21,591 bases of DNA from a virus, in IMG/VR virus record IMGVR_UViG_3300021961_000729, positions 1 to 21,591 of that record; one strand, written 5' to 3'. Of the stretch, positions 3,216 through 14,905 are shown piece by piece (the first letter of the stretch is position 1; each line of letters starts with the position of its first letter). The notes beneath the pieces were generated by a model, which made no database searches, was not told where the DNA came from, and saw nothing but the letters and a program-made list of their open reading frames with translations. The position numbers were made by a program, and so were the translations under genes.

Positions 3216-3521
3216 ATGGCAGCTAAGAATATTAAGGGTTTAGTTTGTGAGCTAAAGGCACAAACAAAGTTTGCCAACAATCCAGATTTAATTGTTTTTA
3301 TTCCTCTTGGTGGCTTGGGTCCTATTGATCTAGTTACTATCAATAAAAAAACTGGCGAATATCAAAGCTATGATGTGAAAGCTTTGAACCGTAGAAAAAA
3401 AGGTATTAAATTTACTAATCGTTTAGGTCAAAAAGTAAGACGTAATCCTGGTGGTAAAATCACTAGACCTTTGACTAGCCTTCAAAGAAAATTAGGTGTA
3501 AAAATAATATATGAAGATTAA
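3216..3521 (+). CDS. PD-(D/E)XK superfamily nuclease (resolvase-like)
   Basis: 101 residues with the order of a minimal PD-(D/E)XK nuclease: Glu12 in VCELKAQ, Asp38 in GPIDLVTI, and Asp53-x-Lys55 in YDVKAL, followed by a basic C-terminal half (NRRKKGIKF, KVRRNPGGK). This is the arrangement in Holliday-junction resolvases and small Hje-type endonucleases. Its end overlaps the lysozyme start by 11 bases. It is unusual that a DNA nuclease lies inside the lysis cassette; it may serve to debranch DNA before packaging, since it would be expressed late with tail and lysis genes. Fold assignment is from motif spacing; substrate is inference. Confidence 0.65.
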   Translation: MAAKNIKGLVCELKAQTKFANNPDLIVFIPLGGLGPIDLVTINKKTGEYQSYDVKALNRRKKGIKFTNRLGQKVRRNPGGKITRPLTSLQRKLGVKIIYED

Positions 3522-5725: not shown

Positions 5726-6008
5726 CTTTTAAAAACTTCTCAATCATTTGTTTATACGGTGGTTTGTTTTGCCAATCCGTTTCTAAAGTAGAGATATGCG
5801 CCATCTCAGCATTAAGTTTTAAATCGTGAACAAAGTTACAATACTTATCAAAGCAACTGCCATCCTTACCATTATGACAGAAATATCGAATAACACGGGT
5901 AGGCTCAAACTTTGGACTAGCTATCCACCCACCCATGTTAGAATACAAACCTTTATTGCAGTAAAGACAATTGCCAACATACAATTCAAGTTCTTTTTTT
6001 TTAACCAT
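5712..6008 (-). CDS. small Cys-rich probable zinc protein
   Basis: 98 residues. Cys14/Cys17 (GNCLYCNKG) and a second group Cys44, Cys52, Cys57 with His45 (YFCHNGKDGSCFDKYC) suggest one zinc site. The rest is polar and alpha-helical at the C-terminus (PPYKQMIEKFLKDGKK). It overlaps the XRE regulator stop by 8 bases and the HNH start by 14, consistent with one polycistronic leftward message. No family recognised. Confidence 0.6.
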   Translation of the reverse strand: MVKKKELELYVGNCLYCNKGLYSNMGGWIASPKFEPTRVIRYFCHNGKDGSCFDKYCNFVHDLKLNAEMAHISTLETDWQNKPPYKQMIEKFLKDGKK

Positions 6009-6345
6009 TTACAATATCTTGTTTAGGTTTTAAATTACCTGCAAATATAATTGCATTATCTTGTTCTTCCTTGGTTAAGAAAAAACTTTCTAATGGTTTA
6101 TTTAAGATTTTAGAAAAAGCATAACCTACTAAAAAAGGTATCTTGTTATTTTTTTTTCTATCTAAAGACTCATACTTTTGAATTTGTTGATATGAGTATC
6201 TTTGACCTAGAAATTTAGTTAGCTTATCTGCTAATCGCATCTGTGTCATTTTTCTTTCTAATCTAAATTTTTTTAGATTATAGGACGTAGCTTGAATATA
6301 TTTAGTACAAGCTTCACTATCGTATGCTAGATGTTTACTAGACAT
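6001..6345 (-). CDS. XRE-family HTH transcriptional regulator (candidate phage repressor)
   Basis: 114 residues with a lambda-repressor-like HTH over about residues 22-95: NLKKFRLERKMTQMRLADKL, then YSYQQIQKYESL (recognition helix and following turn), IPFLVGYAFSKILNKPLESFF. There is no peptidase S24 domain, so it is not a self-cleaving CI protein. Unlike in lambda, it lies nine bases downstream of the integrase, near the end of the leftward unit, not at the divergent control region. It is the strongest candidate for the protein that binds the TTGAC-N5-GTCAA sites, although the Cro-like protein at 11900 is an alternative. Repressor versus activator cannot be told from sequence. Confidence 0.8.
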   Translation of the reverse strand: MSSKHLAYDSEACTKYIQATSYNLKKFRLERKMTQMRLADKLTKFLGQRYSYQQIQKYESLDRKKNNKIPFLVGYAFSKILNKPLESFFLTKEEQDNAIIFAGNLKPKQDIVNG

Positions 6346-6354
6346 TTTGGCTCC

Positions 6355-7398
6355 TTAGTTTATTAGTTTATTAAATATACCATCGACTCTAATATTATTT
6401 CTTGTTTGTCTTTGGTAATACTTCCTAAAAGTTTTTAAGTCTTCCCAACCATATCGATCTCTAAATTCTTTTTCAGATAAGATATTGCTATCGAAAACTA
6501 AACTGGAAGAAAGTTTTCTAAATGGACTTAGTCCACCTTGCCAAGCAATCCCAAGAGACTTTGCGAGTTTTTGAGTATGATACTTGACCTGGCTTTTAGA
6601 AATATTGAACAACCTATTGTTAGATAGGTTAAGTAATTTTAAACTTTTAATTAATGTGATTACTTCCATTGTAATATCTACAGTTCTAAATCCTGCTATA
6701 GTTTTAACAGACCCTGGTTCAAAGACATTATCATTGTCTAAAGTATTCTGTATGGTCCAAGTATTATTTTTGAAATCATCATAACAGGCAGCCAACAGCT
6801 CATTGGTTCTGGCTCCAGAAACTAATGCTAAAGAATATAAAGTTTTATATTTTAAATTAGACTCAGATTGAATTAGTAATTTAGCATCTTGAACTGTTGT
6901 ATAAAATTCATTTTTAATTTTATTTTTTTTACTGGTAGGCACCTTAGTTCTATAATCTAATATCTTAACACAATCCCCAATGTCATAATCTAAGTCTCTG
7001 ATGTACTTTATAATCATTCTAAAGACAGCAATAATATCTTTATAAGTTTTGGCAGACAAAGGCTGCATAGTGGTGCGAGAAACCGCCATAGAAAGCTTTT
7101 TAAGGTAGTTGTTTAAGAAATCTGAGTATTTGTATGTATTAATTGGAACGTTAAAAATTAGGGGTTCTATGTGGCAGGAAACGATTTCTTGGTATCTTTG
7201 TCCAGTATGTTTCTTAATTATGCCATTGTTTACTTGGTTCTCTATATTTTTGTTAAATAAATTAAAAGCTTGTGTAAAATCTATAGTGCTTGGTTTGGTT
7301 GTCCAGGCGATCGCTTGATCTTTAGTATCAAATGACGCGAGGGTCTTGCGACCCTCATCGTATACTTTGTATTTGGTTCCGTTTTTTCTAATAAACAT
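6355..7398 (-). CDS. int: tyrosine integrase
   Basis: 347 residues. The N-terminus has an arm-binding-type beta region (KYKVYDEGRKTLASFDT), followed by a SAM-like core-binding domain (about 40-150) and the catalytic domain. Catalytic residues: Arg197 (VSGARTNELL), Lys232 (GSVKTIAGFRTVDI), Arg294 (LSPFRKLSS) and nucleophile Tyr327 (WEDLKTFRKYYQR). The HxxR box reads SPFR, with Ser291 for His, and the second His is Trp318, as in Cre. It would catalyse site-specific integration and excision, implying a temperate phage. It is packed between coding genes with no gap for an adjacent attP. The adjacent regulator is co-directional. Confidence 0.88.
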   Translation of the reverse strand: MFIRKNGTKYKVYDEGRKTLASFDTKDQAIAWTTKPSTIDFTQAFNLFNKNIENQVNNGIIKKHTGQRYQEIVSCHIEPLIFNVPINTYKYSDFLNNYLKKLSMAVSRTTMQPLSAKTYKDIIAVFRMIIKYIRDLDYDIGDCVKILDYRTKVPTSKKNKIKNEFYTTVQDAKLLIQSESNLKYKTLYSLALVSGARTNELLAACYDDFKNNTWTIQNTLDNDNVFEPGSVKTIAGFRTVDITMEVITLIKSLKLLNLSNNRLFNISKSQVKYHTQKLAKSLGIAWQGGLSPFRKLSSSLVFDSNILSEKEFRDRYGWEDLKTFRKYYQRQTRNNIRVDGIFNKLIN

Positions 7399-8063: not shown

Positions 8064-8551
8064 TAGGCTTTTTTCTTTAGTCTTCTTGAACCAAATATTT
8101 TACCTGCTTCCAACTTCCAGTATTCGATGGGACCACCAATACAACTTTCTGTTAATGAGAACCCTACATCTTCTGCAATGTAGCAATTGTAAATCGGTGT
8201 GTTTCCAAATTCTACAATCATGTAATCACCAACACTTGTACTTCTGTGTCCGTAAGTTTTGCCTTTGATAACTGGTAAATCTTTTTTAACAGTTATGTTA
8301 GGACTTTTGTCTACGTTGAAGTCGTACTGTCGACCAATTGCATCACCGTTACTCCAACTGTCTTCGATGTTTTGTGTGGCTCTCCAAACATCTTCAAGTA
8401 CAGCTTTAACATCTACAGTTTCATCTGATAAATATTTTTTATAAGTGTCAGTTGGTTCATAGTTTGGGTCATAGTTTGCAATGTAAACTGGTTCATCTTC
8501 GAACGCAGCATGTATGACTTGTATGTTTGTTATTTTTAAGTTTGCTGTCAT
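8063..8551 (-). CDS. conserved phage hypothetical (YodL-like C-terminal motif)
   Basis: 162 residues. The N-terminal half (IQVIHAAFEDEPVYIANYDP) is followed by an acidic helical region and a C-terminal element GHRSTSVGDYMIVEFGNT then CYIAEDVGFSL. The RSxSVGD-x(n)-GF pattern resembles YodL/antirestriction-associated domains in phages and conjugative elements, where the role is unsettled. The C-terminus is very basic (GSRRLKKKA). Starts in TAATG overlap with the upstream zinc protein and preceded by GGAG. The family link is a guess from a short motif. Confidence 0.6.
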   Translation of the reverse strand: MTANLKITNIQVIHAAFEDEPVYIANYDPNYEPTDTYKKYLSDETVDVKAVLEDVWRATQNIEDSWSNGDAIGRQYDFNVDKSPNITVKKDLPVIKGKTYGHRSTSVGDYMIVEFGNTPIYNCYIAEDVGFSLTESCIGGPIEYWKLEAGKIFGSRRLKKKA

Positions 8552-8787
8552 TATTGTACTCCTATGTTTTTTTCATATTGATACATTGGAAAAATTTTCT
8601 CATTCCAATCAGAAACTTTGATTGCATCAAATTTTTCAACTAAATTATTGTAACCGTATCTAACTCCTCTGTGAGCAGCGCATTGAATGTTACAATAAAT
8701 ACCACCATAAGTATCTTGGTCTTTAGTAAAAGCAGTACCGCAATACTCACAAGCATTAACATTTGGTTTCTGTTTGTGTATATCCAT
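8551..8787 (-). CDS. small zinc-finger protein
   Basis: 78 residues from the ATG at 8787, which I prefer over upstream in-frame ATGs (8838, 8802). GGAG at 8800-8797 sits nine bases upstream, and the longer start would overlap the operator-like palindrome at 8832. It holds Cys13/Cys16 and Cys32/Cys36 (ACEYCGTAFTK, IYCNIQCAAHRG), a C-x2-C-x15-C-x3-C motif of exactly the spacing in the HNH protein. The C-terminal part is helical with aromatic residues. First gene after a non-coding gap, so probably the first gene of a separately promoted leftward message. Confidence 0.65.
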   Translation of the reverse strand: MDIHKQKPNVNACEYCGTAFTKDQDTYGGIYCNIQCAAHRGVRYGYNNLVEKFDAIKVSDWNEKIFPMYQYEKNIGVQ

Positions 8788-8960
8788 ATTTTTTTTCTCC
8801 ATTGTTAGTTGATTACCTTCTAACATAGTTATTGACATTTAGTCAACAGGTATCTGTGATTGTTTATCAAGAAATGTTACGAAATATTTTTAAAAAAGTA
8901 CAAAGAACCCTTAGCAAGTAAATGAATTTTTACAAGTTGTGCGCTACTTTTTAAGAAAAC
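8788..8960 (-). promoter_or_regulatory. intergenic region with leftward promoter candidate
   Basis: A 173-base gap in the leftward gene series, the only sizeable one between 5108 and 10641. It is AT-rich, holds the TTGAC-N5-GTCAA palindrome at 8832-8846, and read leftward offers TTGACT as a -35-like element within that palindrome. No convincing -10 at 17 bases is seen, so the exact promoter is uncertain. No strong terminator for the upstream genes is apparent. Confidence 0.45.
8832..8846. promoter_or_regulatory. operator-like palindrome, copy A (TTGACATTTAGTCAA)
   Basis: Perfect 5-bp inverted repeat TTGAC/GTCAA around ATTTA. The same arrangement occurs at 14831-14845 and, with one mismatch, at 11866-11880, always upstream of a leftward gene. 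The left half doubles as a -35-like TTGAC on either strand, so a bound repressor would block RNA polymerase. Confidence 0.6.
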
Positions 8961-9158
8961 TTAGTATTCTAGTTGTTTTCTTTGGTCCTGTAGCTGGACT
9001 ATATCCACTAACTTTTCGTTAGCTTGTTTAGCAAGAGCCAGAGTATTTACTGGATAATACCCCATTTTATTTTTTTCCTTGCTTATCCTTGAGAGAAGAT
9101 TTTTCCTTTGCTTTTCTGCTTGAATGATCTTCTCTGTTAGCTGCTGGTATATCGACAA
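8961..9158 (-). CDS. small helical protein with TTG start
   Basis: 65 residues, helical and charged (YQQLTEKIIQAEKQRKNLL, later LVDIVQLQDQRKQLEY), probably a coiled coil. The start is TTG at 9158, eight bases after an excellent AAAGGAGGT (9175-9167), which makes this start convincing even though it lies 92 bases inside the upstream gene in another frame. Function unknown. It is the last gene before the non-coding gap with operator copy A. Confidence 0.65.
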   Translation of the reverse strand: MSIYQQLTEKIIQAEKQRKNLLSRISKEKNKMGYYPVNTLALAKQANEKLVDIVQLQDQRKQLEY

Positions 9159-9333
9159 TCTGGTTTACCTCCTTTACGGTTGATTTAATAAATCGTAAAT
9201 CATCTTGTTTAACAACGCAGCTTGCGTTATCTGGTGGAGTTTGCATCAGAGCTAATTGCTCAACAGAATTAGAAGTGGTTTCAAAAGAAACGGTACATTC
9301 ATAGTCCCATCTTTTTACAAATTTATTCACCAT
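9067..9333 (-). CDS. hypothetical protein overlapping the next gene
   Basis: 88 residues. The N-terminal part looks folded (RWDYECTVSFETTSNSVEQL), while the last 30 residues are Lys/Ser rich and low in complexity (SSRKAKEKSSLKDKQGKK), as expected where the reading frame is constrained by the overlapping gene at 9158. Starts with ATG overlapping the DUF3310 gene by 11 bases. No family recognised. Confidence 0.55.
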   Translation of the reverse strand: MVNKFVKRWDYECTVSFETTSNSVEQLALMQTPPDNASCVVKQDDLRFIKSTVKEVNQIVDIPAANREDHSSRKAKEKSSLKDKQGKK

Positions 9334-9577
9334 ATTCTATTTCTAGTATGATTTTTAAACATTGTATAGCTTTTTTAATATCCTGCGCACCATTCTTTTG
9401 TTTATGTCTGCAAGTATATTTTATAATATTTCCTTCTAACCAAGGTAATTTATTTCTTACATTAAATTCTGCGGGTTGAATAACAAAACCCTGGTAATGT
9501 GTTCCACCTTCCTGGGTCTGTAATGATTTTAAAGAATTGTTATGCTTCTTGCGGTCGCTGGTATTCTTGCTATCCAT
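9323..9577 (-). CDS. DUF3310-family protein
   Basis: 84 residues with the DUF3310 signature in order: GGTHYQGFVIQPAEF (about 24-38), LPWLEGNIIKYTCRHKQKNG (about 44-63) and DIKKAIQCLKIILEIEYG. The family is widespread in phages and sometimes labelled nucleotide-kinase-like, without proven biochemistry; it resembles small all-helical MazG-like folds. The charged N-terminus (SKNTSDRKKHNN) is encoded in a 49-base overlap with the LexA-like gene. It lies in the early leftward recombination and DNA-metabolism block. Confidence 0.85.
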   Translation of the reverse strand: MDSKNTSDRKKHNNSLKSLQTQEGGTHYQGFVIQPAEFNVRNKLPWLEGNIIKYTCRHKQKNGAQDIKKAIQCLKIILEIEYGE

Positions 9578-9741
9578 TTTCTTTTTTCTAAATTTAAAAC
9601 AATTTTGTGAACGTGAGACCTAGTCTTCATATTATGCGCCACCATGATCTCTTGATACGATGGCGCATACCCGTGTTTTTCAATATACGATTTAATCCAT
9701 TGATAGATTTTACTATGTTGTTGAGTTAAACCGTATTTCAT
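9529..9741 (-). CDS. LexA-type winged-helix DNA-binding protein
   Basis: 70 residues matching only the N-terminal DNA-binding domain of LexA: LTQQHSKIYQWIKSYIEKHG, YAPSYQEIMVAHNMKTRSHV (recognition helix) and LEKRKWIARIPATARSITI (wing). There is no autoproteolysis domain, so it cannot respond to RecA by self-cleavage. It might compete with host LexA for operators or act as a small phage regulator. It is flanked by recombination genes and overlaps DUF3310 by 49 bases. Confidence 0.8.
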   Translation of the reverse strand: MKYGLTQQHSKIYQWIKSYIEKHGYAPSYQEIMVAHNMKTRSHVHKIVLNLEKRKWIARIPATARSITIL

Positions 9742-9743
9742 AT

Positions 9744-10043
9744 TTAAATAAAGTCTTCCGCTGCAGCTGCACTATAGGCAGGCTTAGGCGCAAAACCTTG
9801 TTTCTTATTGGTATCAGTTTGAGTAATTGTAATCTTAACTGAACCATCTTCTTGTTTATAACCCGAAGCTTGGCACCAAACATCTTGACCATTTAATTTA
9901 ATGGTAAAATTCTTAGGAACCATAGTGCCTTTTTTCGACATATGATTAACTAAGACCAAGTCTGGATGTTTTTCCTCGGTTTTTTTAGGATTTTTCTGCA
10001 TTGTAAATGAGCAGACATATCCTGGTTTTGGATTAAATGACAT
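9744..10043 (-). CDS. putative single-strand DNA-binding-like protein
   Basis: 99 residues, beta-rich (PGYVCSFTMQKN, KNFTIKLNGQDVWCQASGY, SVKITITQTD) with a disordered Ala-rich tail ending AAAAEDFI. A small beta-barrel-like core plus an acidic/aromatic-aliphatic tip recalls SSB proteins, whose tip recruits partner enzymes. It is preceded by GGAGGA and overlaps the Rad52-like candidate by 11 bases, a usual place for a phage SSB. There is no clear OB-fold signature by eye, so the call depends on context and tail shape. Confidence 0.45.
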   Translation of the reverse strand: MSFNPKPGYVCSFTMQKNPKKTEEKHPDLVLVNHMSKKGTMVPKNFTIKLNGQDVWCQASGYKQEDGSVKITITQTDTNKKQGFAPKPAYSAAAAEDFI

Positions 10044-10641
10044 TATTGTCCTCCAATTGTTGTTGTTTCACCTGTATTTCTGCAAAAAAATCTTTTGCAT
10101 AGCCAGGGTTTTCTTTTGATAAAGCTTCTAAGAAGTTTGCATACTTGCCTATCAGTTTATCAAAACTGGTTTTATCTTTAGCAGATAAAATATTTTTTCT
10201 AACTTCATCTTTAATAGATGTAACATTAGTTTGTGGTTTAGTTGTTGGTTGTGTTTTTATTTTTGATTTTACTTTTTTTAAATCTAATTCTTCAAATGAT
10301 AAAACATCTCCATGTAACTGGAGAGCTTTTAAAATAGCTCTATCGATTGCGCGCTTTTCTGCAACAGCTACAAAGTATGCAAATCCATTATTATCTGGAT
10401 GCGCTTCTCCTAAGCTTGAATATTTTTTATTAGTATGTTTAATAGTTGCAGTACCTTTGCAAACAATAAAACGAATTTTACCATCAGCTACTTTAAGATC
10501 AACGTCTGTTTCAATACCATAATAATTAGCCATCTTTTCAATATCTTTATGATACAAAGCAACTTTGCCATTATCTAAATGATAACATTGATTATCGTTA
10601 ATTAATTGTTCTAAGTATTGTTTGGGAGTTATATTATTCAT
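10033..10641 (-). CDS. putative single-strand annealing recombinase (Rad52/Sak-like)
   Basis: 202 residues. Residues about 56-120 hold KIRFIVCKGTATIKHTN, SSLGEAHPDNN and AYFVAVAEKRAIDRAILKAL with LHGDVLSFEEL. The beta hairpin followed by an A-E-K/T-R-A-x2-R-A helix is the pattern of Rad52/Sak-type annealing proteins and related phage proteins. The C-terminal third is a Lys/Thr linker and helical tail. It is downstream of a RecB-like exonuclease and upstream of a small SSB-like protein, an exonuclease-annealase-SSB order that supports recombination. No Shine-Dalgarno precedes the ATG; instead a stem-loop ends 12 bases upstream. Confidence 0.55.
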   Translation of the reverse strand: MNNITPKQYLEQLINDNQCYHLDNGKVALYHKDIEKMANYYGIETDVDLKVADGKIRFIVCKGTATIKHTNKKYSSLGEAHPDNNGFAYFVAVAEKRAIDRAILKALQLHGDVLSFEELDLKKVKSKIKTQPTTKPQTNVTSIKDEVRKNILSAKDKTSFDKLIGKYANFLEALSKENPGYAKDFFAEIQVKQQQLEDNNVI

Positions 10642-10653
10642 AATTAGTTAGTG

Positions 10654-10691
10654 CTGTGGGATGTTAGAAAATGAAAAAAAACACCCCACAG
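10654..10691 (-). promoter_or_regulatory. stem-loop in the leader of the annealing-protein gene
   Basis: Inverted repeat CTGTGGGATGTT (10654-10665) / AACACCCCACAG (10680-10691) with a 14-base loop. In the leftward RNA all 12 positions pair, one as G-U; in the rightward RNA the same position is an A-C mismatch, so the structure fits the leftward transcript. It lies 12 bases before the ATG at 10641, where no ribosome site is visible, so it may control translation or mRNA stability. There is no U-run directly after it, so it is not a standard terminator. Confidence 0.5.
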
Positions 10692-10694
10692 ATC

Positions 10695-10775
10695 AGAGCC
10701 AGATGTAATGTTAACTAACCAAGGGAGAGAGATAATTATTAGAAAACATAAACTAATAATTATTCTGTTGGCTCT
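10695..10775 (-). other. nested inverted repeats in the 175-base gap between exonuclease and annealing protein
   Basis: AGAGCCA (10695-10701) pairs with TGGCTCT (10769-10775) and encloses a perfect 11-bp inverted repeat ATAATTATTAG / CTAATAATTAT (10732-10742, 10753-10763) with a 10-base loop. With the adjacent stem-loop at 10654-10691 this gap seems to be a structured leader or processing region in the leftward message. A 68-codon frame crosses it, but I regard that as fortuitous. Confidence 0.4.
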
Positions 10776-10816
10776 AATTTTGTTATTACCAAAATTATAT
10801 TTACTTTTAAATAAAT

Positions 10817-11482
10817 TTATTTGGTAGATATTAAAAGGTTTTCGTTCCATAATTGTTCTGCTACTGGTTTGTGTTCTTCATCCCATTTAAAATTAGATAA
10901 ATCTAAATTTACATCATTGGTCCACAAGTGAGTGCCACAATGTCTTTCCGCCAGGCGCTCCCTTCGTAAACATGTTTGCCTAATTTTAAGTGCAATTTTT
11001 TTTAAGTAATCTGGTTGAAGTTGAGGACAATTTTCTTTTGTATAAATTTTATATCCATCTTCATTAACCATTAATAGATAAGGTTCAAGTTTAGTTGCAA
11101 AATAATAAAAAGCAGTTTGTAAATAATAATCATCAAAAGGTTTTAATTGAACAATACTAAAACTTGGTGAGCCATCTGATTTATATTTACCTGTTCTTTT
11201 TCTCCATTTAGTTTTAATTTCAATAAATTTTGTATCATCACATAAATCTATTTGACCCGATACTGGAAGTTTACATCCAGGAAATTTATGTTTAACTGGT
11301 TTTTCTGCAAGGATGTTGCCTGATAAACCTATTTCCTCAATACCTTTAATCGTTTGTTCTAATACTTGTAATAAATTTTCTTTATTGTTTTTATATTCAT
11401 ATTCATCAAACTCATTTAATGGTTTGTAAGTATCATAAGCTGCAGTTGCTAATTTAAATATTTCTTCTTTTTTAGCTGTCAT
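10817..11482 (-). CDS. RecB/Cas4-like PD-(D/E)XK exonuclease, C-terminal catalytic part
   Basis: 221 residues from the ATG at 11482. The catalytic core is complete: Asp79 in SGQIDLCDD, Glu88-x-Lys90 in FIEIKTKW, and a QxxxY motif from Gln122 (YYLQTAFYYF), as in RecB/AddB/lambda-exo-type nucleases. The preceding helical part (KLATAAYDTYKPLNEF, LEQTIKGIEEIG) matches the middle of longer phage RecB-like nucleases, whose N-terminal part is here in the separate gene at 11780-11472. An AGAGGA lies 11 bases before the ATG. The open frame continues upstream of the ATG, leaving a +1 frameshift possible. It probably resects DNA ends for the annealing protein. Confidence 0.75.
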   Translation of the reverse strand: MTAKKEEIFKLATAAYDTYKPLNEFDEYEYKNNKENLLQVLEQTIKGIEEIGLSGNILAEKPVKHKFPGCKLPVSGQIDLCDDTKFIEIKTKWRKRTGKYKSDGSPSFSIVQLKPFDDYYLQTAFYYFATKLEPYLLMVNEDGYKIYTKENCPQLQPDYLKKIALKIRQTCLRRERLAERHCGTHLWTNDVNLDLSNFKWDEEHKPVAEQLWNENLLISTK

Positions 11483-11780
11483 CGAATTTAGTGTCCTCTG
11501 TTTTAAAAAATTGTTTTTTATTTTTATTATAAATTTTCTTTGCAAATATTTGTGCTACTGCTTGACCTATTGTTGCGCCTGCAATCATTTTAGCATTTGG
11601 TTTAAAATCAGCTCTCTCTTTTTCTGTTAAAAAAAAATATTTAAAACAAAATATATCATCTGTTAAATTTATTTGAGAAGGTGAATGATGGTTCCATTTA
11701 TAAAATATAGACCAATCTGGAAGCTCTGTTTCTATGTTTGATTTCTTTAAAATTTCTTTTAATTTATTTTCAACATTCAT
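11472..11780 (-). CDS. RecB-like exonuclease, N-terminal part (split gene)
   Basis: 102 residues containing HHSPSQINLTDDIFCFKYFF and ADFKPNAKMIAGATIGQAVA. In phage RecB-like nucleases the conserved start is SxSQINLF...KYxY followed by NPAMxxGTAVE, so this is the expected N-terminal domain with the conserved helix that lines the active site. The frame ends at 11472, 11 bases past the start of the catalytic part in another frame. Either two subunits assemble one enzyme, ribosomes shift frame in the A/T-rich overlap, or this is a mutation or sequencing error. No Shine-Dalgarno is visible before ATG 11780. Confidence 0.65.
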   Translation of the reverse strand: MNVENKLKEILKKSNIETELPDWSIFYKWNHHSPSQINLTDDIFCFKYFFLTEKERADFKPNAKMIAGATIGQAVAQIFAKKIYNKNKKQFFKTEDTKFDDS

Positions 11781-11829
11781 TAAACAAACTAATAACCAAA
11801 TGAAAACTATCAGTAAACAATAAATGAAA

Positions 11830-11854
11830 TATATTCGCTTGCTGAGTGAATATA
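11830..11854. promoter_or_regulatory. 25-bp pseudo-palindromic operator candidate
   Basis: TATATTC at the left and GAATATA at the right are perfect inverted arms; inside, CTT/GAG positions continue partial symmetry around a GC-richer centre (GCTTGCTGAG). The size, imperfect symmetry and position over promoter-like elements suit an XRE/Cro dimer site. I saw only one copy. Confidence 0.5.
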
Positions 11855-11865
11855 ATTTAATTTGT

Positions 11866-11880
11866 TTGCCAATTTGTCAA
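11866..11880. promoter_or_regulatory. operator-like palindrome, copy C (TTGCCAATTTGTCAA)
   Basis: Differs from the perfect TTGAC-N5-GTCAA form by one base (C for A in the left arm). It lies between the divergent genes, 20 bases before the Cro-like start codon, and its right arm read leftward is a consensus -35 TTGACA. Confidence 0.5.
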
Positions 11881-11899
11881 AAAGAATTATAAGCAAAAT

Positions 11900-12100
11900 A
11901 TGCAACTTAATAAATTTAGAATTTCTAAAAAACTAACCTACAAAGGTTTAGCTGATCTGATTGGTTTACAAAGTAAAACTGCATCCAGTACCGTTCATCG
12001 TTGGTGTACTGGTTCTAGAATACCTAGACCTAAAATGTTGGATAAAATAAAAGCAGCTACAAAAAATAAAGTAACTATAAAAGATTTTTATGAAGTTTAA
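11900..12100 (+). CDS. Cro-like XRE HTH regulator
   Basis: 66 residues, almost entirely one HTH domain: NKFRISKKLTYKGLADLIGL, then SSTVHRWCTGSRIPRPKMLD (recognition helix VHRWCTGSR) and AATKNKVTIKDFYEV. It is the first rightward gene from the divergent control region, the position of cro in lambdoid phages, and is small enough to be only a DNA-binding dimer. It overlaps the next gene by 11 bases. It may bind the nearby palindromes and oppose the XRE regulator encoded near the integrase. Confidence 0.8.
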   Translation: MQLNKFRISKKLTYKGLADLIGLQSKTASSTVHRWCTGSRIPRPKMLDKIKAATKNKVTIKDFYEV

Positions 12101-12344
12101 AAAATTTGTTTTAATTACATGGGAAGACATTTGTGCTTTTAATGATTGGAAAAATTTAGACGCAGCAAAAAAAGATAATGTTGCGATTTGTTATAGTGCA
12201 GGCTTTATTATTGAAAAGAATAAAAAAAACACAATTATTTGTTCTGATTGGTCAAACGATACGGAAGGAACTGAAGTAGGTAATCGTAATGTTATTCCTA
12301 ATTCTGTTATAAAAAAAATTGAAGTTTTGTATGAATATAAATGA
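12090..12344 (+). CDS. hypothetical early protein
   Basis: 84 residues (start FKKFVLITWEDICAFNDW, then VAICYSAGFIIEKNKKNTII and IPNSVIKKIEVLYEYK). Probably a small alpha/beta protein; no motif or membrane segment. Coupled to the Cro-like gene by an 11-base overlap and to the next gene by 14 bases. The pattern VGxIIEexdexIxIaxxwx...IPrxxI recalls small conserved phage proteins of unknown role that occur near regulators. Confidence 0.6.
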   Translation: MKFKKFVLITWEDICAFNDWKNLDAAKKDNVAICYSAGFIIEKNKKNTIICSDWSNDTEGTEVGNRNVIPNSVIKKIEVLYEYK

Positions 12345-12510
12345 ACGTTTAAATGATAAAGGACCCGATGATCTTGAAGCTAAACAATTAGTTTCAGAAA
12401 AAGAAGCTGCTGAGTTAAAAAAAATTATTGATTTAAAAGACAAAGCAATTGAAGAACTTACAGAAAAAATTAACAGAAAGCTTAACAATCTCAGAGAAAA
12501 AGGTCTTTAA
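12331..12510 (+). CDS. small coiled-coil protein
   Basis: 59 residues from ATG 12331 (MNINERLNDKGPDDLEAKQL). From residue about 17 it is a continuous amphipathic helix rich in Glu, Lys and Leu (EKEAAELKKIIDLKDKAIEE), a likely dimeric coiled coil. Overlaps neighbours at both ends, with an upstream TTG as a less likely start. Function unknown. Confidence 0.5.
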   Translation: MNINERLNDKGPDDLEAKQLVSEKEAAELKKIIDLKDKAIEELTEKINRKLNNLREKGL

Positions 12511-12631
12511 GTGCGTTAAGTGCAGTAAAACTGCAGTTATAATTGATGAAAAAGAATATTATTGTGGTGAGCATTATTGTATTAAGCATAACATTCCAGA
12601 AAGATATGGTTTAGAATTATGGCGCGTTTAA
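12449..12631 (+). CDS. small zinc-finger-like protein (start uncertain)
   Basis: 60 residues if started at TTG 12449. The meaningful part is FKCVKCSKTAVIIDEKEYYC followed by GEHYCIKHNI, with Cys22/25/39/44 able to bind zinc. The N-terminal 20 residues overlap the coiled-coil gene in another frame, and no ATG or GTG lies between them and the Cys motif, so either the TTG is used, or the Cys part is made by frameshift from the coiled-coil gene. It overlaps the next gene by 13 bases. Confidence 0.45.
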   Translation: MKNLQKKLTESLTISEKKVFKCVKCSKTAVIIDEKEYYCGEHYCIKHNIPERYGLELWRV

Positions 12632-13011
12632 ATTATTTTAATATCGGAGATCACTTCAGCGAGTACCATAGAAAGTTTGATGGTCTGGCAGGATTAGATT
12701 TGGATTTTATTGAGATTTGTAAAAAGTGCCAGGAGCCGCTGGCTATGTTTGAGACCGCGGTTGATAAAGGTCAAACCTATAAAACTACCACAGTTACCGA
12801 GAAAATTGCAAGAGCTTGTAAAGTACCATCATTCCTGGTTTTTTATACCCCTGGTTTAGCTCACGATGAAGTTACTCAATTTCGCATTAAGAAGCTCACA
12901 CCTGCCGAAAGTGAGCTGAGGGTCATGGAACCCCTAGAATTTATAAAGATGCTAAAAATACTGCAGGAGAGGCACAGCAATGAGTGTGTTTTAGCGGAGG
13001 TACCGTTTTGA
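12619..13011 (+). CDS. conserved phage hypothetical protein
   Basis: 130 residues. Features: YFNIGDHFSEYHR, DLDFIEICKKCQEPLAMFET (with CxxC), TVTEKIARACKVPSFLVFYT, and a C-terminal TQFRIKKLTP and EPLEFIKMLKILQER. The order Asp-Phe-(Ile)-Glu, then a hydrophobic strand ending in Glu, then the VPSFLVFY strand looks like a small restriction-endonuclease-like fold, as in phage proteins with LDFVExCxxCxxPLAxxE, but the usual ExK is ETA, so activity is doubtful. Sits just before a replication-type HTH gene and is coupled to it. Confidence 0.6.
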   Translation: MARLNYFNIGDHFSEYHRKFDGLAGLDLDFIEICKKCQEPLAMFETAVDKGQTYKTTTVTEKIARACKVPSFLVFYTPGLAHDEVTQFRIKKLTPAESELRVMEPLEFIKMLKILQERHSNECVLAEVPF

Positions 13012-13562
13012 GTTTCTTTGTAGCTGATGAAAGTATTTTAAAAAGCGAAAGATTAACCCCATCTGATAAGTTGGTTTATTTTGGTTTGGTTAGTTTTTAT
13101 AATCGTAAAACTAAGGTTTGTTATCCTAGGGTTCAAACGATAGCAGACAGGGTCGGGTTGTCTAAACTGACGGTGTACCGTTCCATTGCCAGACTAAAAA
13201 AGCTTAATATTATCCAGACTAAAAGAAAACAATCTACACTAGAATATAAGCTGCCATTACATGAGAATTTACTTAGTAATTCGAGAGTTATCAAATTTTA
13301 TAACTCTGAGTTATCAAATGTTATAAGTATTAATAAAACCAAAGTAATTAAACCATATAGTAATTATAATTATAGAAATAACTATTCTCAGAATAGCACC
13401 TACCTGCCAAGCCAGAATAAAGATATTGAGTTTCAAGGTATTAAATTAAAGTTTTACGCATCGGAAGGTTTGCTCGATCAATTCCGTGGCTCCGATGGTT
13501 TTGAATATACTAAGAATAGGTTAAACGGAGATATTAAAAAAAAAACTAAAAAATTAGCCTAA
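13008..13562 (+). CDS. HTH_36-type DNA-binding protein, replication initiator-like
   Basis: I start this gene at TTG 13008, which overlaps the previous TGA and follows GGAGGT (12996-13001) by six bases; the upstream ATG at 12984 lacks such a site. The 184-residue product has a wHTH at about residues 17-78 (LTPSDKLVYFGLVSFYNR, CYPRVQTIADRVGLSKLTVY, RSIARLKKLNIIQTKRK), the HTH_36 form common in phage O-like replication proteins and in plasmid initiators. The rest is Asn/Tyr rich, then a basic tail. A replication role fits the rightward early position; a regulator is the alternative. Confidence 0.65.
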   Translation: MSFFVADESILKSERLTPSDKLVYFGLVSFYNRKTKVCYPRVQTIADRVGLSKLTVYRSIARLKKLNIIQTKRKQSTLEYKLPLHENLLSNSRVIKFYNSELSNVISINKTKVIKPYSNYNYRNNYSQNSTYLPSQNKDIEFQGIKLKFYASEGLLDQFRGSDGFEYTKNRLNGDIKKKTKKLA

Positions 13563-13612
13563 TGCTTGCTAAACTTTAAATTTTAAAATAAGAATGAATA
13601 ACTATATTTAGT

Positions 13613-13873
13613 ATGCCTGGTCGTAACAAACTACTAAAGCAATGTGAAAGTTACACCAGGGGTTCTAATTTTACGGTACGTTGCAGATGTAAGGGTAATT
13701 TGATGAAAACAGGTCATTACCGTTGCAAGTATCATGCAGGGATGTCTACTGGTCCAACTTCAATTTCTGGACAGTTGAAATCTTTAAAAAACTTACCACA
13801 ATATAAAAACAAAACAGATGAGTACATTTTAGATGCAATTAGAAAAAATAGAAAATATTATCGAGAAGCTTGA
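13613..13873 (+). CDS. HGG-motif phage protein
   Basis: 86 residues with Cys11, CRCKGNLMKTGHYRCKYHAG followed by MSTGPTS. This is the small phage family with a Cys cluster and an HGGxSTGP motif, here HAGMSTGP, usually found next to the small terminase gene. It probably binds zinc through Cys23/25/37 and His residues. The C-terminal helix (DEYILDAIRKNRKYYREA) is encoded in a 41-base overlap with the small terminase. Biochemical role unknown; co-location suggests packaging or late regulation. Confidence 0.7.
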   Translation: MPGRNKLLKQCESYTRGSNFTVRCRCKGNLMKTGHYRCKYHAGMSTGPTSISGQLKSLKNLPQYKNKTDEYILDAIRKNRKYYREA

Positions 13874-14228
13874 AAACGGTAAAACTTTAACTGAAATTTG
13901 TAAGGATAAAAACTATCCTTCTCTTTCTGTGGTTTATCGTAAAATGCGTGAAGACGATCAATTTCATAAAAGAATTATGAAAGCACGTGAGATTGGAACG
14001 TTTACTATCCTTGACCAAATACACGAGATGTTAAGTAAACCTCAAGACCCTAAATACTTTCAACAGACTCGAGAACTAGCGCACCACGCAAGATGGTTAG
14101 CATCTAAGTTAGCTAGTGGTATTTTTGGAGATAAGGTTAAACAGGAAATTAAATCAGATAATACAATTACGATTAGTTGGGGAAGACCCCAGGAGCCTAA
14201 AGAGGCTCCCGAGGTAATTGAGGGTTAG
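13833..14228 (+). CDS. terS: terminase small subunit (Sf6-like)
   Basis: 131 residues. An N-terminal HTH (ENGKTLTEICKDKNYPSLSV, VYRKMREDDQFHKRIMKAR) is followed by a helical oligomerisation core (HEMLSKPQDPKYFQQ, HHARWLASKLASGIFGDKVK) and a short acidic tail. The DARKW-like HARWLASKLA and GDKV elements are typical of Sf6-type small terminases, which form rings that recognise phage DNA and hand it to the large subunit. The gene overlaps the HGG-motif gene. Its TAG interlocks with the stop of the leftward gene (TTAG at 14225-14228). Confidence 0.82.
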   Translation: MQLEKIENIIEKLENGKTLTEICKDKNYPSLSVVYRKMREDDQFHKRIMKAREIGTFTILDQIHEMLSKPQDPKYFQQTRELAHHARWLASKLASGIFGDKVKQEIKSDNTITISWGRPQEPKEAPEVIEG

Positions 14229-14788
14229 ACTAAATTATTTTTTTTGTAACATGCGTTAATGTTCTGCGCGATAGCTAGATTGATTTGATTATTAATCTTT
14301 TTTTGTTCTTCTTCTCTAGCTTTTGTCTCTGGTGAGTTTGCGTCTGCTTTCATTCTTGCTAAGTCTGCAAGGTCTGAAAGATTGTATTCACCTCTTTTTT
14401 CTACTGTCCAAGTTACTTTACTCATAACGTGGTTAATTGCTTTGATATTACATACTTGTTTTTTCTGTAAATCTGACAATTTATTGTAGTCAATTGTTTT
14501 TAAAGATTGCTCTACTTGTTGAGTTGTTGCATGTTTTCCAAAACCAGTAGACTTAACATGTCCATTGTCTGCAATGTATAAAAGCAAAACAGCTTCATAA
14601 GTAGATTTTTTTGGTTTACACCATTGGTTGTTTTTTGGATTTAAAGTAGCATAACAAAATCTATCACCATGTTTTGTAGTTTCTACCCAATAACGTCTTT
14701 TAGTCTTTAATCTAAATCCCCAAGGGTAATTATCAACTTCTATAGAGTTTTCGAAGCTGTCCTTGTTGTAAATGTATGATTTAGTCAT
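14225..14788 (-). CDS. conserved phage hypothetical, leftward gene within packaging module
   Basis: 187 residues containing YPWGFRLKTKRRYWVETTKH, GDRFCYATLNPKNNQWCKPK and KKSTYEAVLLLYIADNGHVK. The same order (YPxGFrLrT.iRYWiEt, GqRfvxqTlNPKTxxWNKPKkSTY) recurs in diverse marine phages, with no assigned role. The gene runs against its neighbours, has its own upstream region with the palindrome at 14831 and a good AAAGGAG site, and converges on terS with interlocked stops. This makes it moron-like or a separately regulated early gene. It would be transcribed antisense to terS if it read through. Confidence 0.7.
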   Translation of the reverse strand: MTKSYIYNKDSFENSIEVDNYPWGFRLKTKRRYWVETTKHGDRFCYATLNPKNNQWCKPKKSTYEAVLLLYIADNGHVKSTGFGKHATTQQVEQSLKTIDYNKLSDLQKKQVCNIKAINHVMSKVTWTVEKRGEYNLSDLADLARMKADANSPETKAREEEQKKINNQINLAIAQNINACYKKNNLV

Positions 14789-14830
14789 TGATTTTCTCCT
14801 TTATTAGTTATAATCTTAATCTAGTTATTT

Positions 14831-14845
14831 TTGACAAAATGTCAA
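14831..14845. promoter_or_regulatory. operator-like palindrome, copy B (TTGACAAAATGTCAA)
   Basis: Perfect TTGAC-N5-GTCAA palindrome in the 117-base gap between the leftward gene and the rightward small gene at 14906. Read leftward it supplies TTGACA/TTGTCA as -35, with TTATAA-like sequence 17-18 bases downstream of TTGTCA. Rightward, TATAAC at 14887-14892 could serve as a -10 for the late genes, so it may influence both. Confidence 0.6.
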
Positions 14846-14905
14846 TCCATGATTGTTAAAATAATTAATAAACAAATGTTACAAAATATAACAAGGAGAA
14901 ATTAA

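Follow-up and report, generated by a model that had tools for sequence, protein, structure and literature searches.

A 15-bp palindrome at three promoters of an integrase-bearing HTVC010P-like pelagiphage: a probable operator that accompanies exchangeable genes behind the small terminase

The DNA analysed here is a single virus record, the IMG/VR fragment IMGVR_UViG_3300021961_000729, of 21,591 bases, and this whole stretch is what we call the window. The large terminase (TerL) encoded in it is 57-63% identical to the TerL of HTVC010P-type pelagiphages. Because of this identity and of an integrase-like gene (6355-7398), we read the window, from its sequence, as a 21.6-kb piece of an HTVC010P-like pelagiphage genome that bears an integrase. 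The element under study is a 15-bp palindrome, TTGAC-N5-GTCAA, found at three places (Table 1). Site S1 precedes the leftward operon that holds the integrase and a protein of the XRE family. Site S2 lies between two divergent units, a leftward recombination operon and a rightward early operon headed by a small Cro-like helix-turn-helix (HTH) protein. Site S3 precedes a leftward gene, here called the cargo gene, that occupies a slot between the small terminase (TerS) and TerL.

The original prediction had located the palindrome at 8832-8846, at 11866-11880 with one mismatch, and at 14831-14845, and all three positions are correct. Two exact copies occur in the window against 0.07 expected from dinucleotide-preserving shuffles, and none of 100 shuffles reached two. 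When one mismatch was allowed, four copies were found against 0.75 expected (0/100 shuffles reached four); the fourth, TTGACTAGCCTTCAA at 3471, lies inside a gene. No excess was seen in the window at up to two mismatches (7 copies against 12.7 expected), which indicates that only near-exact sites matter. A de novo control accepted any exact repeat with a 5-bp arm of at least two G/C and a spacer of 0-8, wholly inside the 1,144 intergenic bases. The window yielded this motif alone, and 0/150 Markov shuffles yielded any. The exact count, the one-mismatch count and the de novo control together rule out a chance palindrome.

A search with the HTH protein provided 12 close relatives, and 11-13 members were compared per site. 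As had been expected of a true operator, every covered site sits at the same position in these relatives. The ten arm columns are all invariant at S1, S2 and S3, compared with roughly half of the flank columns (67/150, 58/124 and 51/100). The arms of S1 are unchanged in 11 clade members and those of S2 in 13, including the C that breaks the palindrome, which makes S2 a variant that has been maintained, rather than a degenerate copy. The spacer sequence varies freely at S2 and S3, and contigs of the window clade carry about three sites each. To the right of S1 and S3 (8850-8895 and 14846-14895) we also observed common conserved words, GATTG and AATGTTACnnAAT, at differing spacings; these may be a second binding site. 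A scan of viral DNA for TTGAC-N5-GTCAA-N7-GATTG, a spacing that matches neither S1 nor S3, returned unrelated contigs only.

The wider family comprises about 76 contigs that encode HTH homologues (42-100% identity), collected by profile searches. In 76/76 of them the relaxed word TTRNC-N5-GNYAA, with at most one mismatch, occurs in the 80 bp that precede the HTH gene, compared with 11.5% of random windows of the same size. When strict arms were counted over spacers of 0-12, a spacer of 5 gave 164 sites and each other spacer 3-35. Many copies inside genes would have spoken against an operator; instead, 150 of the 164 sites fall at S1, at S2 (the HTH/CI intergenic region) or behind TerS at S3. 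The remaining 14 include three S1 sites in contigs that yielded no marker gene, and five sites that follow closely on the end of the CI gene, adjoining the leftward recombination operon. S1 is found upstream of the integrase operon in relatives from several groups, and some relatives carry tandem operator pairs 31 bp apart. A separate observation concerns L206, L207, L208, L216 and L217, in which an additional TTACC-N5-GGTAA separates CI from the leftward recombination operon (for instance at L207:8090), so that this operon is probably controlled in the same way.

Table 1 Sites, predicted promoters, genes and operons in the window
Feature	Position	Strand	Remarks
S1 operator	8832..8846		TTGAC-ATTTA-GTCAA, TTGACATTTAGTCAA; upstream of leftward operon 8787->5108
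S2 operator	11866..11880		TTGCC-AATTT-GTCAA, TTGCCAATTTGTCAA; on HTH gene promoter; left arm imperfect
S3 operator	14831..14845		TTGAC-AAAAT-GTCAA, TTGACAAAATGTCAA; at promoter of cargo gene 14788->14225
Tentative S1-operon promoter	8818..8846	-	TTGACT-17 nt-TTAGAA; read by eye; weak -10
Predicted HTH-gene promoter	11866..11893	+	TTGCCA-16 nt-TATAAG; expected start point at ATG
Predicted cargo-gene promoter	14818..14845	-	TTGACA-16 nt-TAGATT; 10/12 matches; -35 inside S3
S1 operon	8787->5108	-	Holds integrase and XRE protein
First gene of S1 operon	8551..8787	-	GGAG ribosome site upstream
Putative phage integrase	6355..7398	-	In S1 operon; tblastn similarity 23-33% to L038-type integrase reading frames
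XRE protein	6001..6345	-	Adjoins integrase; phrog_3/phrog_8 regulators
Leftward recombination operon	8961..11780	-	Nuclease, annealing protein, LexA-DNA-binding-domain protein (9529-9741), others; divergent from HTH gene
Rightward early operon	from 11900	+	HTH protein, replication-initiator-like protein, TerS
Cro-like HTH protein	11900..12100	+	66 amino acids; proposed operator-binding regulator; first gene of rightward early operon
Small terminase TerS	13833..14228	+	PF20901 E 6.5e-21; phrog_1482; left border of cargo slot
Cargo gene	14225..14788	-	187 amino acids; slot between TerS and TerL; homologues 34-90% in viral contigs
TerL and head genes			Follow the leftward cargo gene, which follows the rightward operon

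The window's cargo gene is replaced or absent among relatives, and S3 is unchanged in L003, L008 and L011 even though the gene behind it differs. Across the family, all 20 genomes with cargo, defined by a gap of at least 600 bp behind TerS, carry S3 operators, one or two each, compared with 0/16 of the genomes whose short TerS gap holds no cargo. On a tree of TerS and the preceding gene (g13613), the operator/cargo state changes at least six times. Four sister pairs (L200/L202, L070/L094, L209/L084 and L216/L207) differ by the operator-plus-cargo block: they match to about the TerS stop, and the extra block of about 0.6-1.8 kb contains an operator, a ribosome site and a gene. Where there are two cassettes (L080, L084, L222), two operators are present. 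The cargo genes are largely unrelated to one another, leftward in the window clade and rightward elsewhere, and matched solely PHROG families of unknown function, with no convincing Pfam or PADLOC match. We also considered whether the window's cargo gene (g14225) carries the motif independently of the phage regulator. This was ruled out, as contigs with a g14225 homologue alone have no exact copy of the motif; the one exception, L043, is a window-clade fragment. The original prediction had included this packaging-module gene in the regulon, a claim that finds support, and had missed that the gene is exchangeable and moves with its operator.

The predicted promoters at the three sites overlap the palindrome. 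At S2, the best-conserved elements (TTGCCA-16-TATAAG) face rightward, ahead of the HTH gene at 11900, and their layout of -35 box, 16 nt and TATAAG recurs in relatives with only 48% HTH identity. Since the expected start point is at the ATG and there is no ribosome site, the HTH message is likely leaderless. A leftward consensus match is also present at S2 in the window (TTGACA-17-AATTAT), with a -10 that is not conserved in the alignment. Each site does lie upstream of a leftward gene, as had been claimed, and this includes S2 (gene 11780); the idea that S2 serves essentially that leftward gene is not supported, given its conserved rightward promoter and unconserved leftward -10. Between 11780 and 11900, both divergent genes appear to have conserved -10-like boxes that end at the start codons, and neither seems to have a ribosome site, which suggests that the messages of both early genes are leaderless.

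Several lines of evidence bear on the identity of the binder. A 15-bp word with 5-bp arms about one helical turn apart suits an HTH dimer. The HTH protein matches the Pfam family HTH_3 (23.5 bits, cut-off 23) and PHROG repressor families. Its AlphaFold model is all-helical, with a five-helix XRE-type domain (mean confidence, pLDDT, 85), and among the best PDB matches of the model, all of them with weak E-values, are restriction-modification C proteins, P22 c2, 434 Cro and P2 C. Outside the window clade, most relatives, including L038, L070 and L095, have a CI-like gene that lies divergently to the HTH gene and has a site at its start. The window and its clade have no CI gene between 11780 and 11900; L084, L097, L087, L090, L203 and L236 also do without CI, and the HTH gene and operators remain.

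Operator arms and recognition helices vary together across the family. Arm sets rich in TTACC/TTGCC pair with the HTH helix A29-[TA]-T-[TI] and with CI (I/V)VT(V/I)NRW or PVT(V/T)(H/Y)RW. Meanwhile, TTGAC/TTGTC arm sets pair with HTH [SGEHQ]-[ST]-T-[VI] (S/G/E/H/Q at 29, V/I at 32) and with CI DKTT(I/V)NRW. L198 amounts to a module swap in nature. Its integrase end shares 99% identity with the L038 type, its LexA-like protein is of the L070 type and its S1 right flank is nearly identical to that of L093, while the HTH/CI module belongs to the other type and the S1 sites switched type along with the module. The covariation and this swap favour the HTH protein, and CI where present, over the XRE protein as the binder. 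Such covariation argues strongly, short of proof, for HTH/CI binding.

Other explanations were weighed against this one. The XRE protein, which the original prediction had also put forward as a binder, could be the lysogeny repressor acting on these operators, with the HTH protein binding elsewhere or in a secondary role. Its gene adjoins the integrase in relatives where the region is covered and lies within the operon headed by S1, so that autoregulation is possible, and the CI-less window clade would need some repressor. Yet its presumed recognition helix (QQIQKYE in the window, QQ(I/V/T)QK more widely) is nearly constant across lineages with different operator arms, the site is always at the HTH gene, and the window protein has weak family matches only; we consider this explanation unlikely. 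Still less credit is due to the protein at 9529-9741, whose LexA DNA-binding domain is clear (PF01726, E 1.3e-11) and of which nearly every relative covering the operon has a homologue. Gapped palindromes resembling this one are known among bacterial LexA boxes. This protein, however, has 70 amino acids and no dimerisation domain, and in L197/L198 it matches the L070 type over the compared stretch although the operators are of the other type. Neither the XRE nor the LexA-like helix covaries with the operator, and for this reason both were judged improbable binders, the latter very much so.

It is just as improbable that the word is a strong -35 box, palindromic by accident and served by no dedicated regulator. 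It does carry TTGACA on both strands and overlaps the predicted -35 boxes, but a -35 box alone leaves several facts aside: the two arms and their exact 5-bp spacing are retained, even with non-consensus TTACC/TTGCC arms; tandem pairs stand 31 bp apart; and genomes without cargo lack S3 operators. An RNA hairpin, acting as an attenuator or processing site in place of a DNA site, is the least probable of all. Weak folding is possible for the words at S1 and S3 (-3.0 and -3.4 kcal/mol), but S2, whose mismatch is conserved, forms no fold (0 kcal/mol), and on this ground the hairpin was discarded; moreover, the sites overlap -35 boxes and so lie upstream of the expected transcripts.

Some observations weigh against an HTH/CI operator set. 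Few independent lineages and switches stand behind the covariation, and the arm types overlap: at S3 TTGAC halves also turn up in TTACC lineages, and at S2 TTGTC lineages have GGTAA halves. The S1 promoter fits the consensus poorly, and the consensus scan did not recover it. The integrase-like gene is the sole pointer to a temperate lifestyle for the window phage. Finally, lytic phages of the HTVC010P type retain an HTH homologue (31-39% identity) without enrichment of the motif, which means that the protein does not always imply this operator. Five phages of this lytic group were compared and, given the lack of enrichment, were ruled out as carriers of the same operator. Four phages, HTVC010P, HTVC034P, Lederberg and HTVC204P, have AT-only palindromes (such as GTATATATAC or GTTATATATAAC) about 40 bp before the HTH homologue, possibly another operator type.

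The genes around the sites were also inspected. The identity of the first gene of the S1 operon varies among relatives. A Pfam search gave no match for 6355-7398, and its assignment as an integrase comes from homology and position. In two relatives a complete tRNA-Pro(TGG) adjoins the XRE/integrase genes (L067:2537-2613 and L070:3107-3183) and is likely an attachment site. The LexA-like protein consists solely of the DNA-binding domain, and the recombination operon of nearly all relatives keeps it. No match to the HTH family was confirmed in sequenced bacterial genomes. A search with TerL revealed a related phage region, possibly a prophage, on a 399-kb SAR11 single-cell contig (L240, uncultured Pelagibacteraceae AG-892-J03); this region has no HTH match, operator or cargo.

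Based on these results, we consider it likely that the palindrome is the operator of a Cro/CI-type regulon and that, in the CI-less clade of the window, the HTH protein binds it, autoregulates at S2 and represses the integrase operon at S1 and the cargo cassette at S3. The original prediction of an operator regulon joining separate units, including a gene of the packaging module, is thus supported by conserved positions, by sites that are not scattered in genes and by arm-helix covariation. From these observations, and from the joint presence, gain and loss of operator and cargo, we infer binding, repression rather than activation, an order of affinities and a timing. Early transcription from the rightward promoter would make the HTH protein first. 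By occupying the perfect sites S1 and S3, the protein would then mask the -35 box and so shut off the integrase/XRE operon and the cargo gene. At S2, where binding is probably weaker because the site is imperfect, it would limit its own expression. Unrelated genes are exchanged in the slot behind TerS, each behind a copy of the operator-promoter, and new cargo would thus fall under phage control. More tentatively, and with the balance leaning against it, we suggest that after the loss of CI the 66-amino-acid Cro-like protein might run the switch by itself and that the standardised TerS slot might take cassettes already carrying the phage-specific operator.

This arrangement is reminiscent of the CI/Cro operators of lambdoid phages (lambda OL/OR, 434, P22 c2). 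There, too, a small HTH regulator of the XRE/lambda-repressor fold heads the rightward early operon, and palindromic sites overlap its own promoter and the leftward early or lysogeny promoters; the relatives described above even have the divergent CI-like gene with a site at its start. In contrast to lambdoid three-site clusters, the window has one operator per promoter (tandem pairs occur in some relatives only), its clade has no CI gene, and an extra operator in the packaging module would control an exchangeable gene. Because the clade lacks both CI and operator clusters, we would count it as a member of the lambdoid Cro/CI operator set only with qualification. The immI region of P22 (mnt/arc/ant) likewise places an operator-controlled accessory gene among late structural genes, but it brings its own repressors, whereas the cassette here consists of operator and gene and appears to use the main regulator of the phage. 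Repressor sites dispersed at separate units are also known from the C1 operators of P1 and the stoperators of mycobacteriophage L5; those are asymmetric and numerous, while the sites described here are palindromic, three in the window and all at promoters. As in phage morons, a self-contained gene with its own promoter sits between conserved late genes and is present or absent among close relatives. Unlike in morons, the promoter carries a phage-specific operator that wires the cassette into the regulon, and it is this operator-tagged cassette that is unusual.

HTVC010P-like phages are among the most abundant marine viruses, and lysogeny in SAR11 is poorly understood. We found no operator described for HTVC010P-like phages in the open-access literature searched. 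With a defined operator and a likely regulator, the lysis-lysogeny switch of these phages can be tested directly, and the operator word predicts, from sequence alone, which genes fall under its control. The TerS slot is a place to harvest accessory genes of unknown function, while natural module swaps offer a ready test of how operators are rewired upon regulator replacement. In these phages, newly acquired genes appear to come already wired to the phage switch.

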